This document shows, piece by piece, positions 19,103 to 24,593 of a stretch of DNA of 43,155 bases. Numbering within the stretch: position 1 is the stretch's first letter; each line of letters starts with the position of its first letter. The stretch is from an uncultured Hyphomicrobiales bacterium. Lineage in GTDB: Bacteria; Pseudomonadota; Alphaproteobacteria; Rhizobiales; Beijerinckiaceae. Under the pieces are notes generated by a model that did no database searches, was not told the DNA's origin, and was given only the letters and a program-made list of their open reading frames with translations. The stretch spans positions 1 through 43,155 of the forward strand of contig CAIZGQ010000401.1 of assembly GCA_903932565.1 (NCBI GenBank). The letters run 5' to 3'. A program made the position numbers and the translations under genes.

Positions 19103-20118
19103 ACGCACCGCGCCGTATCGAGCCCGGCCCACAGGTCGGAAATCCACCCAGCTTGGAACAGGTGCCGGTCACGCGCCTGCAGGTCGACCCGACCTATCAA
19201 CGCGCCACTGACAGCGAAGCATCACGCCGCATCATCGCGGGAATGGTCAAGAAGTGGAACTGGACGTTGTGTCAGCCGCTTGTGGTTGCGCGCCGCACCG
19301 ATGGCTCGCTTTGGGTGCTGGACGGCCAGCACCGGCTTGCAGGCGCGATCGAGCGCGGCGACATCCCCTATGTCCCTTGCGTCATTTCATCTTCTCTCGA
19401 CCACGCGGATGAGGCGCGCACTTTCGTTGAGCTGAATACGCGCCGGCAGAAGCTCAGCCAAGGCCAAATCTTTCACGGTATGCTGGCCGCTGGCGATCCG
19501 GACGCCAAACAGGTGCAGCAGCTGCTCAACGACACGGGCTGGCGCGTAATGCGTAACAGCAACACGGCCAGTTATAAGCCGGGCGATCTGGAATGCGCAC
19601 CGATGATCGTCAGAATGCTTGCGGCCAGAGGCGAACCGGCCACGCGCTTCGCGTTGACCGTGTTACGCGCAGCGTGGCCCGACAAGGCGGTTCGGCAATC
19701 TGCGACGTTGATCAAGGCAGTCGTCGAGCTGTTCGACCAGGTCAACGACACAAGCCTGACGGCCGCGAAGCTGATTGCGTCGATCGGATCGATCCTTCCC
19801 GAGCGCTGGATATCCCGTGGCGCAGCACTTCAGGATCATGATCGCGCACTGTCCGCTGTGACTGCCATCGCACGCGCCATGCTTAGCCTGGCATCTGGCG
19901 AAGCACAGCCAAGCTTCACGCGACCAGTCACCGCGGTTTCCCCGCCCAAACTCATCACCAAGCCAATTCCTGCTGCGCGCCCCTTCACGGCGCCGCCGCC
20001 AGAGCGCGTCTTTGGTGCTTCGGGGAAGGGCTGGTGCGCCCAATGCGAGACACTTCGCAGCCGCGAATACGCGGGCGCCTGCACCAACCGCTTTTGCAAA
20101 CTTCGCGGCCACGTCTGA
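19099..20118 (+). CDS. ParB/Srx-fold domain protein (DUF6551-like)
   Basis: VTRLQVDPTYQRATD, DGSLWVLDGQHRLAGAIERG; Cys-rich C-term CAQCETLRSREYAGACTNRFC. Confidence 0.75.
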   Translation: MNAPRRIEPGPQVGNPPSLEQVPVTRLQVDPTYQRATDSEASRRIIAGMVKKWNWTLCQPLVVARRTDGSLWVLDGQHRLAGAIERGDIPYVPCVISSSLDHADEARTFVELNTRRQKLSQGQIFHGMLAAGDPDAKQVQQLLNDTGWRVMRNSNTASYKPGDLECAPMIVRMLAARGEPATRFALTVLRAAWPDKAVRQSATLIKAVVELFDQVNDTSLTAAKLIASIGSILPERWISRGAALQDHDRALSAVTAIARAMLSLASGEAQPSFTRPVTAVSPPKLITKPIPAARPFTAPPPERVFGASGKGWCAQCETLRSREYAGACTNRFCKLRGHV

Positions 20119-20131
20119 ACAGGAGAATTTC

Positions 20132-21514
20132 ATGACTCTTTCCATGTTGCCACTCAACACATTGTGCCTGTCGAGCCTGAACGTGCGCCACACCGAACGC
20201 GATGCCGATATCGCATCGCTCGCCGAAGACATCGCCGCGCGCGGTCTGATCCAGAATCTGGTCGTGGTGCCCGCGCATTTCATGACCGGCGAAGCCACCG
20301 AAGGGTGGGACGACAAATGGGAGGTCATCGCGGGCGGCCGGCGCTTTCAGGCGATGCAGCTGCTGGTGGCCGATGGCCGCCTTGCCGTTGATCATCCGGT
20401 GGCCTGCCTGGTCGAAGATCGCGACGAAGCCCGCGAAATCAGCCTGTCGGAAAATCTGCACAAGGTCAGCATGAACCCGGCCGACGAATTCGCCGCCTAT
20501 CAGGCGATTGTGGACAACACACCCGATCTGAACCGCGACGCGGCCATCGCCAAATGCGCCAAACGCTTCGGCAAGACCGTGCGCCACGTCGAAGGCCGCC
20601 TGCGCCTCGCCAGCCTCTGCCCCGAAGTACTCGACGCGCTGCGCGCCGACCTGATCTCGCTCGATGCCGCCAAGGCCTACGCGGCCACCACCGACCACGA
20701 TCTGCAGCGCAAGGTTTTCGCCGCGCGCGAGCGCGACACATACAGCGGGCACAACGCCAATACGATCCGCTATGAAATCCGTGGCAAGACCCTGCCCCTC
20801 GATGCGCCACTGGCGACCTTCGTCGGCCTGGTCGCCTATCAGGCCGAAGGCGGCCGCATCGAAGCCGAGATGTTCATGGGCGCCGAAGGCCAGCAGCGCA
20901 TCGTCGATGTGCCGCTGCTGAAAAAGCTGGCAACCGCCATGGGCGAAGCCGCCGTGCCCGCACTGGCCAAGGCAGACGGTTTCAAGTCTGGCCTGTTCGT
21001 TGCCGAAACCGCACGCATGGCCCGCATGCCCAAACCGCCCGAAGGTTTCGCGTTGGCGTGGGACAACTGCGATCAACCCAGCAAGACAAAGCTGAAAAAG
21101 TCGATCGCCGTCTATGCCATCAATGCCGAAGGCACCGGCCTCGAACGTATCGGCCGATTGAAGCCTGCGGATGAAACCAAAAAGACTGAAGCCCCGCGCG
21201 ACTGGGAGGCCGAACGCGCCGAGCAAAATCGCATCCGCGCCATCGAGCACAAGGCATCGCAAATGGCCATTCCAAAGTTCGCCGGCACCCCGCTCGAAGG
21301 TATCGCCTTCTACCCCGCGAATGGCTGGAACCGCGATTGCGACGACGATCACGTCTATGTCGAACTGCTGATTAAGGTGTCGATCACCGACATCGAGGCC
21401 CAGCGGGCAGAGGCCGAACGCTTGATCGATGAAGAGGAAGCCGCGGTGCGGCGCGAAAAGCTGATCGAAGTACTGAAGACCGAACGCGAATCGGCCGAAG
21501 CGTCCGAGGTCTGA
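20132..21514 (+). CDS. ParB-like DNA-binding protein
   Basis: SLAEDIAARGLIQNLVVVP, WEVIAGGRRFQAMQLL, ISLSENLHKVSMNPADEFAAY; upstream RBS aggag. Confidence 0.88.
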   Translation: MTLSMLPLNTLCLSSLNVRHTERDADIASLAEDIAARGLIQNLVVVPAHFMTGEATEGWDDKWEVIAGGRRFQAMQLLVADGRLAVDHPVACLVEDRDEAREISLSENLHKVSMNPADEFAAYQAIVDNTPDLNRDAAIAKCAKRFGKTVRHVEGRLRLASLCPEVLDALRADLISLDAAKAYAATTDHDLQRKVFAARERDTYSGHNANTIRYEIRGKTLPLDAPLATFVGLVAYQAEGGRIEAEMFMGAEGQQRIVDVPLLKKLATAMGEAAVPALAKADGFKSGLFVAETARMARMPKPPEGFALAWDNCDQPSKTKLKKSIAVYAINAEGTGLERIGRLKPADETKKTEAPRDWEAERAEQNRIRAIEHKASQMAIPKFAGTPLEGIAFYPANGWNRDCDDDHVYVELLIKVSITDIEAQRAEAERLIDEEEAAVRREKLIEVLKTERESAEASEV

Positions 21515-21516
21515 CC

Positions 21517-21768
21517 ATGTCTGACGGCCCCTTTTGCAAGGATTGTAAGTTCCTGCGGACGTATATCGGTGGCCATCCGCCCGAGTGCTGGCGGCCGACC
21601 AAGCCAGCCTTCGATTTGGTACGTGGCGAAAAATATACTTACAGCTCGTTCGATCCGCACCGCGAACGATCGGGTACGCGCACCTTGTTTGGCCGTCAAA
21701 AGTGCGGGCCGGGTGGCGTGTTCTTTCAGCAAAGCCGCTTTTCGCCGCTGCCACCACCCAGCAAATGA
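21517..21768 (+). CDS. Small Cys-containing hypothetical protein
   Basis: FCKDCKFLRTYIGGHPPECWRP. Confidence 0.55.
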   Translation: MSDGPFCKDCKFLRTYIGGHPPECWRPTKPAFDLVRGEKYTYSSFDPHRERSGTRTLFGRQKCGPGGVFFQQSRFSPLPPPSK

Positions 21769-22394
21769 TCATGCGTTGCGAAGTCCAACTCCACCGCTAC
21801 GCACTGATCCTGACCGATCCGCCATGGGAAACCCTGCTATGGTCGGGCGCCAAGCGCACCCCCACGCAAAAGACCGGCGATGATCATTATCCGGTGATGT
21901 CCGCCCAGGACATGGCTGCACTGCCGATCGCCGAGATCGCCGCCGACGACGCGGTGCTGGCGATGTGGGTGATCGGCAGCCATCTGGATCAGGCGCTTGA
22001 TCTCGGCCGGGCGTGGGGCTTCGAGTTCAAGACCGACCTATTCTATTGGGCCAAGCAACGCCGCCTGCACCCCGACCAGATCGTTCTGTTCAGCCAGGAC
22101 GTCGCACCCGCGCCGATCGGTATGGGGAAATATACCCGCAAACAAGTCGAGCCGTGCCTGCTATTCAAACGCGGCAAAGGCCTACGCGTATGCGACCACA
22201 GCGTGCGCCAGCTGATCGTCGCCCCCAAACGCGAACACAGCCGCAAGCCCGACGAACAATACCCTGCGCTGGAATCGCTGTTCGGCGATGTGCCACGTGT
22301 CGAACTGTTCGCCCGCACCACCCGCACCGGGTGGGACAGCTGGGGCAACCAGACCGACAAATTCACGCCTCAAACATTTCTGGGGGCGGCATGA
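21765..22394 (+). CDS. MT-A70 family DNA N6-adenine methyltransferase
   Basis: ALILTDPPWETLLWSG (DPPW), ATG overlaps upstream TGA. Confidence 0.85.
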   Translation: MIMRCEVQLHRYALILTDPPWETLLWSGAKRTPTQKTGDDHYPVMSAQDMAALPIAEIAADDAVLAMWVIGSHLDQALDLGRAWGFEFKTDLFYWAKQRRLHPDQIVLFSQDVAPAPIGMGKYTRKQVEPCLLFKRGKGLRVCDHSVRQLIVAPKREHSRKPDEQYPALESLFGDVPRVELFARTTRTGWDSWGNQTDKFTPQTFLGAA

Positions 22395-22702
22395 ACGCGC
22401 CCACTACCTTTGATCAGCACGCGGTGACCGCCGAACGCCGCTGGCGGCAGCAACTGATCGCCGATCTGCCCGATGCCGCCAGCTTCGCCCGCGAACTGCC
22501 CGGCCCGATCGCGCTGGCGCTGGCCAATGCCTATTTTGACAAACACGCCCCGGCCTATCGCGCGCGCACGGCACACGATGCGGCCGAGCTGCGCCGCTGG
22601 GGCCTATGCGACTTTCCCAGCGCGCGCAGCAACGGCCTGCTGCTGACAAACTTCGGCGTCACCGTACGCCGCCACGTCCTGAACGATGAGGCAACCCGAT
22701 GA
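22391..22702 (+). CDS. Hypothetical phage protein MNAPTTFDQHAVTAERRWRQQLIADLPD...
   Basis: 103 aa, ATGA overlap both sides. Confidence 0.6.
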   Translation: MNAPTTFDQHAVTAERRWRQQLIADLPDAASFARELPGPIALALANAYFDKHAPAYRARTAHDAAELRRWGLCDFPSARSNGLLLTNFGVTVRRHVLNDEATR

Positions 22703-22893
22703 CTGCACCGGCTCGCTTTACCCAGGCCGATATCACCCGCCTCGTCAAAGGCGTGATGGCCGCTGGCATGGACATTCGTTCGATACGTGTTGCCCCCAAT
22801 GGTGAAATAGTTGTGTCTGCTGCCGCCGAGGAGCAGGTTATCGAATACACCGCGAATCCACTGGACCGGCTCTTGATCAATGGCACCTCGTAA
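22699..22893 (+). CDS. Small protein preceding integrase (possible excisionase/RDF)
   Basis: 64 aa MTAPARFTQADITRLVKGVMAAGMDIRSIRVAPNGEIVV; overlaps int start. Confidence 0.5.
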   Translation: MTAPARFTQADITRLVKGVMAAGMDIRSIRVAPNGEIVVSAAAEEQVIEYTANPLDRLLINGTS

Positions 22894-23986
22894 GGAAAAA
22901 CTGCCCGACAACGTCTCATCGTTTGTCGATCGGCACGGCAAGCGCCGCTATCGCTGGCGCAAGGGGGCGCGCAGCGCTTACCTGACCGCGCACCCCAATA
23001 CGAAAGAGGGCGCGGCAGAACTGGCCGCGATCATCGCCGGCATCGCCGCGCCAAAGCAGGATACCCATCCGCACGGCACTGTGGCCTGGGCCGCCACGCG
23101 CTATTACACGTCGACCACCTTCACCGGCACGAAGGCCCCACAGACGCTGCACAATGCGCGTCAGATCCTTGAAAAGTTTGTGGGTGAATTCGGCAAAGAC
23201 AAAATCGAACACTGGCGGTTCGACCATATCGAGGCGATACTGGCAAAGGCCGCGATCAAGACCAAAAACGACAAGGGCCGCACGATCGGCGGCCCCAGTG
23301 CAGCGATGAACCTGCGCGGAGAGCTGCTGCCGTTTTTCGACTATGGGTTCAAACTGCTGGGAATCACCAAACAAAACCCGGTGGCGCAGGCCGCATCGAT
23401 CTCGGTGCCAAAGGGTGGCTTCCACACCTGGACTGAACTGGAAATCGCGCAGTACCGCAACCACTGGGCACTGGGCACCAAGGCGCGCCTGGCGCTGGAG
23501 ATCTTTCTATGGACGGCACAGCGCCGGGGTGATGCCGCTGCCTTCGGTCGCAAGCACCTGATCGACGGCCATATCGAGGTCACGCCCGCCAAGACCAAAA
23601 ACAGCAGCGGCACAAAGCTGAACCTGACTGCCGCGCCCCAGCTGCTTGAAGCGATCGCCGCGATGGCTGTCACCGGCACCGAGACCTTCCTGGTCAACGA
23701 TTACGGCAAACCGTTCACGGTGGCAGGCCTTGGCATGCGCATGCGCGAATGGTGTGATGCCGCAGGCCTGCCCCACTGCAGCGCCCACGGCCTACGTAAA
23801 GCCGCCGCCCGCCGCGCCGCCGAAGCTGGAGCCAGCAACCAGGAACTAAAAGCGGTTGGCGGATGGACCACCGACCGCCAAGTCGCCGTCTACACCGCCG
23901 CCGTCGAACAAAAACGCATGGCCGAACAAGCCATGGCCCCCGTGATCGCGTTCGATAGGAAGGCGCAAGATGACAAGTCTTCCTAA
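22880..23986 (+). CDS. int: Tyrosine recombinase/integrase
   Basis: AQRRGDAAAFGRKHL, CSAHGLRKAAARRAAEAG (HxxR), GGWTTDRQVAVYTAA (Tyr). Confidence 0.92.
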   Translation: MAPRKEKLPDNVSSFVDRHGKRRYRWRKGARSAYLTAHPNTKEGAAELAAIIAGIAAPKQDTHPHGTVAWAATRYYTSTTFTGTKAPQTLHNARQILEKFVGEFGKDKIEHWRFDHIEAILAKAAIKTKNDKGRTIGGPSAAMNLRGELLPFFDYGFKLLGITKQNPVAQAASISVPKGGFHTWTELEIAQYRNHWALGTKARLALEIFLWTAQRRGDAAAFGRKHLIDGHIEVTPAKTKNSSGTKLNLTAAPQLLEAIAAMAVTGTETFLVNDYGKPFTVAGLGMRMREWCDAAGLPHCSAHGLRKAAARRAAEAGASNQELKAVGGWTTDRQVAVYTAAVEQKRMAEQAMAPVIAFDRKAQDDKSS

Positions 23987-24464
23987 GCACGTATCGGCGT
24001 TCAAAGATCGCCACGGTAAAGTCAGGTACCGTTTTCGCAAAAACGGCCGAAGCCGTTACATTGATGCCGATCCAGGCACGGCCGAGTTTCACACGCAAAT
24101 CGCTGAATGCATGATCGGTGTGATGCCGCCAAAGCAATCGAAGGCCATCAATTACCCCGAGGGAACTTTTTTTTATTTCGTCAGCAACGGCGAAAATGCG
24201 GTCAAGATCGGATGGTCAGGCAACCTGCGCGCGCGAATGGCCGACCTTGCCGTCGGATCAATTCGCACCCTTCGCTTGCTTGCGATAGTATCAGGCGGCC
24301 CAGTAATGGAACGACACTTTCACAAGACCTTCGCCAAGCAGCGAATCCGCGGCGAGTGGTTTGAGCGCAGTCCCGAATTGGATGCTCTAATCGACGAATT
24401 GGCTACCCATTCAAAACTGGATCAAAAGGTTAGCCAAGACACGCTTGCTAACCCTATGAAATAG
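23970..24464 (+). CDS. Integrase-like N-terminal arm domain fused to GIY-YIG (T5orf172/MUG113-type) nuclease
   Basis: LPKHVSAFKDRHGKVRYRFRKNGRSRY matches integrase LPDNVSSFVDRHGKRRYRWRKGARSAY; FYFVSNGENAVKIGWSGNLRARM...MERHFHKTFAKQRIRGEWFE. Confidence 0.82.
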   Translation: MTSLPKHVSAFKDRHGKVRYRFRKNGRSRYIDADPGTAEFHTQIAECMIGVMPPKQSKAINYPEGTFFYFVSNGENAVKIGWSGNLRARMADLAVGSIRTLRLLAIVSGGPVMERHFHKTFAKQRIRGEWFERSPELDALIDELATHSKLDQKVSQDTLANPMK

Positions 24465-24593
24465 AATAATTTTTTGAGGCGCTGGCAGGAGTGGAGGTCA
24501 TGTATGAACCGTTTTAATTCAGCTTCATGGCTTGGCTAACCCCATAAATCCAACCAACGCAATCCTGTGGCATCCCGAACCACTTGGCTAACC
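24428..24593. repeat. attP: CTTGGCTAACC repeats, putative integrase arm-type sites / attP region
   Basis: GGTTAGCCAAG 24428-24438, CTTGCTAACC 24444-24453, CTTGGCTAACC 24531-24541 and 24583-24593. Confidence 0.55.

Follow-up and report, generated by a model that had tools for sequence, protein, structure and literature searches.

Results

A predicted arm domain-nuclease chimera overlaps the integrase gene

The window, that is, the whole stretch of 43,155 nucleotides analysed here, is an entire contig from an uncultured Hyphomicrobiales bacterium that carries phage genes (terminase, head protease, primase, tail, tape measure) on both sides of an integrase gene, int, so that attP appears to be unsplit. 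Genes for a ParB-like protein and an MT-A70 DNA methyltransferase directly precede the integrase region (Table 1). Between them and int, a 64-residue ORF overlaps the int start; it has no Pfam match but resembles, by eye, Pam5_33 of Pseudanabaena phage Pam5, which also sits just upstream of an integrase, and is perhaps a recombination accessory factor. At the other end of int, an ORF of 164 codons (hereafter ORF164) starts with ATG 17 nt inside the integrase gene and is preceded, about seven nt upstream, by a Shine-Dalgarno sequence that itself lies within int.

Table 1. Coordinates of the features of the integrase region in the window.
Position	Strand	Feature
20012-21514		ParB-like protein
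21585-22394		MT-A70 DNA methyltransferase
22699-22893	+	Small ORF (64 aa) directly upstream of and overlapping int, unknown family
22880-23986	+	int, lambda-type tyrosine integrase, 368 aa
22901-23044	+	N-terminal arm-binding domain of the integrase (residues 8-55; three strands plus helix)
23957-23963	+	Shine-Dalgarno sequence of the chimera (AGGAAGG), inside int
23970-24464	+	Chimera (ORF164), 164 aa: integrase-type arm domain plus T5orf172/MUG113 GIY-YIG nuclease
23979-24119	+	Arm-type N-domain of the chimera (residues 4-50)
24168-24380	+	GIY-YIG nuclease domain of the chimera (residues 67-137)
24399-24408	+	Arm-type site TTGGCTACCC (1 mismatch), inside the chimera ORF
24428-24437	-	Arm-type site TTGGCTAACC (exact), inside the chimera ORF
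24438-24531		Inferred attP core interval, between the inner arm-type sites
24532-24541	+	Arm-type site TTGGCTAACC (exact)
24584-24593	+	Arm-type site TTGGCTAACC (exact)

The first-pass annotation had proposed, from the sequence alone, that the N-terminus of ORF164 matches that of the integrase over some 34 residues and that the remainder has GIY-YIG nuclease features. This observation is confirmed, and the similarity is in fact longer: in a BLASTP comparison, residues 4-69 of ORF164 aligned to residues 8-70 of the integrase with 30 of 66 identities (45%, E=6e-13), which is not expected by chance. An arm-domain HMM also matched the N-termini of both proteins, and an integrase HMM matched the chimera at 3e-9. 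Among 40 arm domains compared at sheet positions, the closest to the chimera was that of its own integrase (16/24). Residues 69-137 matched two Pfam GIY-YIG families above the curated cut-offs, PF13455 (MUG113; E=3.7e-7, 31.1 bits against 22.3) and PF10544 (T5orf172; E=4.2e-6, 27.6 bits against 20).

Three conditions had been named in advance as fatal to this reading: N-termini without a common fold, missing GIY-YIG catalytic residues, and no conserved co-occurrence with integrases. None of them applied. An AlphaFold2 model of ORF164, computed with 20 rows (pLDDT 85.9), showed strands at residues 8-12, 18-24 and 27-31 and a helix at 38-49, followed by a low-confidence linker and a confident nuclease domain (pLDDT about 94). 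The integrase model showed strands at 12-16, 22-28 and 31-35 and a helix at 42-54, the same order four residues later, as the sequence alignment predicts; however, the alignment used for the chimera included integrase N-terminal rows, thus the two models are not fully independent. A Foldseek search of the chimera model against PDB gave no significant hit (best E 0.26, with lambda Int at rank 4 and E 0.54), which leaves undecided whether the N-domain matches solved arm-domain structures, while a search against viral models returned MUG113/T5orf172 proteins. The catalytic-type residues are present: Y69, K79-I80-G81, R89, E114, H118 and GEWF128-131 are nearly invariant in a 20-row alignment. Nuclease activity itself was not assayed. 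The third condition, co-occurrence, is dealt with below.

The int product is a lambda-type integrase with an N-terminal arm domain: it matched PF00589 (E=4e-12) and a PHROG integrase profile (1e-26), and its AlphaFold2 model matched full-length lambda Int best (1z1b, E=1e-11 over 359 columns). ORF164 is not an excisionase by its domain content, as no HTH family was detected in it by Pfam.

Arm-type repeats at the chimera gene and the inferred attP core

We next searched for arm-type sites near the chimera gene. TTGGCTAACC occurs three times exactly and once as a near copy across the 3' end of the chimera ORF and just beyond; such a set was not reached in any of 40 shuffles. The inner spacing (104 nt) resembles that of two other loci, designated L140 and L142 (loci are given L numbers throughout), where the interval (123 and 111 nt) holds a tRNA 3' end and is plainly an attP core. 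We therefore infer that the attP core of the window lies between the inner sites. A search of the window's own assembly with the att region gave no convincing attB, and no terminal overlap was found when the contig was tested for circular ends.

The closest integrase relative found, L029 (52% identity), has CTTGGCTAACC 10 bp after its int stop and opposite-strand genes beyond it, as in the window, but no chimera. The motif therefore goes with the integrase lineage, and the chimera is an accessory placed between int and attP. A scan of viral contigs for paired CTTGGCTAACC gave a single chance hit inside a structural gene.

Recurrence of the arrangement beside other integrases

To determine whether the architecture is unique, we searched viral contigs and genomes. 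Scans of viral contigs with single proteins were not productive: ORF164 found nothing and the L107 chimera found only itself. Likewise, a search of 296 genomes of the host family showed no second copy with the same arm class, and a class-wide search with the L014 chimera gave only the window genome. Scans with alignments of the nuclease, however, recovered ten more integrase-linked loci in which an integrase-type N-domain is fused to this nuclease: L107, L106, L142, L111 (seven contigs), L120, L101, L014 (Microvirga flocculans), L208, L097 (with an integrase C-terminus just upstream) and L138 (Brucella pseudogrignonensis). One such scan, of genome contigs, gave Microvirga, Brucella and an unrelated Streptomyces hit. 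GIY-YIG hits in the phages CBW1004C-Prop1, P7869, RHph_I1_23 and Mx8 were examined and are not in the integrase arrangement. The nuclease domains of the window, L138 (3878-4405) and L097 (467-910) also matched weakly (best 7e-6) PDC-S57 (PDLC05041), a candidate defence family of PADLOC.

Linkage to int is tight, with gaps after int of -17 nt (window), -14 (L014), -4 (L101, L111 and L120), 10 (L142), 12 (L106) and 75 nt (L107). In two other loci, the genes are linked across attP. In L138, a 65-bp tRNA-Pro repeat marks the prophage ends; the resident integrase was traced to the other prophage end, where int stops about 17 bp from one repeat while the chimera begins 142 bp from the other, so that the order in the circle is int, attP, chimera. 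In L208, GTTACCC boxes lie between int and chimera. In L101 and L014, a tRNA-Arg directly follows the chimera. Arm-type repeats were found at the end or start of the chimera gene in the window, L106, L142, L111, L101, L014 and L208, but L107 gave none. The repeats of L101 and L014 against those of L106 and L142, TTGTCKGAA and AAGTTGRAAC, look related by eye (GTYGGAA) although the integrase N-domains differ; the motif may follow the domain class of the chimera, which was not tested.

Proximity to an integrase was at first taken as evidence in itself, but against a prophage background it is not: among MUG113 loci of the host family, about 5 of 36 examined have an integrase within 1.5 kb, near what prophage density alone could give. 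The argument therefore rests on the domain match. That the layout is an assembly artefact is rejected because isolate genomes show it too. It could also be argued that ORF164 is debris, a decaying second integrase fused by chance to a nuclease remnant, since prophage ends collect gene fragments and the arm domain would be what remains of an integrase. This is very unlikely, given an intact ORF with a Shine-Dalgarno sequence, a confident two-domain model, nearly invariant nuclease residues and the same layout in at least ten other loci, including isolate genomes.

A second group of proteins fuses an HTH_17/excisionase-like domain to the same nuclease and is encoded directly upstream, rather than downstream, of int in L009, L005, L099, L159, L161 and L209. 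The excisionase-type domain is supported in L009 and L161 and only weakly in L099 and L159. This arrangement is apparently also undescribed. The assembly that contains the window carries another element (contig C822; L003, 40-2064) with an xis-like HTH_17 gene, an integrase and an overlapping MUG113 GIY-YIG ORF. In phage Pam5, a GIY-YIG gene lies two genes upstream of an integrase. Pam5_32 (L199, 3964-5058) and XAI96537.1 (L088, 2983-4047) are annotated as hypothetical proteins, but they have the integrase arm domain and the typical catalytic motifs and thus look like unannotated tyrosine integrases.

Match between the chimera N-domain and the resident integrase

In BLASTP comparisons, the chimera matched the N-domain of its own integrase in L107 (1e-12), L106 (6e-17) and L208 (5e-13), as in the window. 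We then scored each chimera N-domain against every integrase N-terminus with shuffled controls. Own-integrase z-scores were 27 (window), 25 (L106), 24 (L208), 24 (L142), 20 (L107), 16 (L120) and 10 (L111), but about 0 to 1 for L101, L014 and L138. Thus, in 7 of 10 testable pairs the N-domain is of its own integrase's type (p=0.00056 by permutation of partners), and our first guess that chimera and integrase always match is rejected. The window, L107 and L208 domains are specific to their own integrase, whereas the other four share one class; in all, at least three arm-domain classes occur. L101 and L014 carry that shared class although their integrases do not detectably, but it cannot be excluded that these integrases have a distantly related N-domain below detection. 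The L138 integrase has a different N-domain, and the L138 chimera domain is closest to that of a Shinella integrase (17/24 sheet positions). These three loci are the best hint that the target can be another element.

Phylogeny of the arm and nuclease domains

In a tree of 42 arm domains (64 columns), the three chimeras with window-type arm domains (window, L107 and L138) fell at three separate places among integrases, and supported branches force three changes. In a tree of 82 nuclease domains (80 columns), seven chimeras formed one supported clade (99/92), whereas those of the window, L138 and L097 emerged elsewhere; supported branches force at least two changes. L107 sits in the clade despite its different arm class, i.e., a domain swap. 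Both trees rest on few columns, but the simplest reading is repeated fusion, with at least two separate events, and domain swapping.

Discussion

The closest precedent is Odn (Gp88), the origin-directed nuclease of Vibrio phage ICP1 (PMC8263062), in which a C-terminal T5orf172 nuclease, with E180 as its essential Glu, follows an N-domain 42% identical to the RepA_N domain of the satellite that it attacks. Odn needs the RepA iterons to cut. ORF164 likewise joins a T5orf172-type nuclease to a domain homologous (45% identity) to a protein that normally binds repeated sites in an essential cis element, and modular swapping of the binding domain is common to both. Odn, however, belongs to a lytic phage and targets a replication origin, whereas the domain found here is an integrase arm domain linked to a temperate phage's own integrase and attP, and no cleavage has been shown. 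In Odn the binding domain comes from the antagonist; here, with its own integrase's class in 7 of 10 pairs and not its type in 3, the data do not tell whether it derives from an antagonist or from the carrier. T5orf172 homing endonucleases of phages also have modular binding domains and are found at gene boundaries (PMC10448857), but those domains are mostly zinc-finger types (CapR, DUF723, DUF4397) or RepA_N, and we found no mention of an integrase arm domain among them. I-TevI of phage T4, discussed in the same work, joins a GIY-YIG nuclease by a linker to a separate DNA-binding domain and can bind without cutting when no cut site is in range; its nuclease is N-terminal, its binding domain is of the HTH type, and it is intron-encoded without a link to an integrase. 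In lambda, the arm-binding domain (1z1b, 5j0n) is only part of the recombinase and no free arm-domain nuclease is known.

We propose, with about even confidence, that ORF164 is an attachment-site-directed endonuclease. In this view, its arm domain brings the nuclease to arm-type sites around attP-like DNA, and during mixed infection or superinfection it most likely cuts the att region of related or nuclease-less phages or mobile elements that use the same class of arm sites. This would block their integration or excision and might also let the nuclease gene spread into attP regions that lack it. Our analysis establishes the fusion, its recurrence with several integrase arm classes, the predicted fold order, the conserved catalytic residues and the arm-type repeats at the gene, whereas DNA binding, cleavage, the identity of the target and self-avoidance are inferred; neither dependence of cutting on the repeats nor interference with a rival was measured. 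In cognate cases, the phage's own attP carries matching arm sites next to the gene, so self-cleavage must be avoided by a means that we did not identify, and no rival element with the target site was found. Own DNA is probably spared because the insertion separates binding and cutting sites, or because no cut motif lies in range; there the protein would only bind, as described for I-TevI acting as a repressor. Interference would explain cognate arm domains, as rivals for the same site share the arm class, and non-cognate ones as well.

Alternatively, the gene may be a selfish homing endonuclease that binds the arm sites of nuclease-less relatives, cuts at the int/attP junction and is copied into the break, its own copy being protected by insertion between binding and cut site. 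T5orf172 proteins are commonly homing endonucleases with swappable binding domains (PMC10448857), homing shares the first step of our model, the gene sits exactly beside the sites its domain should recognise, and several separate fusions and a domain swap are apparent. L029 has int, the motif and lysis genes without the chimera, but at 52% identity in int it does not settle whether the gene is polymorphic at a conserved position: no allele pair from close relatives was found to show precise insertion, and gene conversion was not examined. Moreover, homing does not predict that the binding domain should again and again be of the neighbouring integrase's own class, nor does it explain L101, L014 and L138. 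We consider it unlikely, though not negligible.

A self-regulatory role, in which the chimera competes with the integrase for its own arm sites or nicks its own att DNA to control the integration/excision balance, seems more doubtful still. The translational overlap with int, the cognate arm domain in 7 of 10 loci, the arm sites within the gene and the parallel excisionase-type group are in its favour. However, conserved nuclease residues would be unnecessary and dangerous for pure regulation, the arm domain is non-cognate in three loci, and L029 does without the gene.

The first-pass annotation's reading of a chimera that could be directed to att DNA is supported by homology, predicted fold order, recurrence with several arm-domain classes and arm-type repeats next to the gene. 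Which of the roles it had suggested (att-site competition, homing, or regulation of integration/excision) applies is not settled, although the Odn precedent and the three non-cognate loci favour action on other elements' DNA over self-regulation. It knew of no system with this layout; the design principle is known from Odn, but our literature searches, within an open-access library, found no integrase arm domain joined to a GIY-YIG nuclease. More broadly, and somewhat less likely than not, the data may reflect a widespread and so far undescribed class of att-directed nucleases in temperate phages, in which T5orf172 nucleases repeatedly acquire the recognition domain of recombination proteins (integrase arm domain or excisionase HTH), are encoded beside int and attP, and act as weapons in competition between integrating elements for attachment sites.

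Prophages and integrative elements compete for the same attachment sites, but few dedicated mechanisms for that contest are known. The chimeras would make this contest directly testable in laboratory strains and would give a natural source of arm-site-directed nucleases. A nuclease that copies the integrase's DNA reader would strike the one sequence that a rival of the same type cannot lose without losing integration. It would extend the Odn principle, mimicry of the target's own DNA-binding protein, from replication origins to att sites, and from one phage/satellite pair to many temperate phages, by repeated invention.
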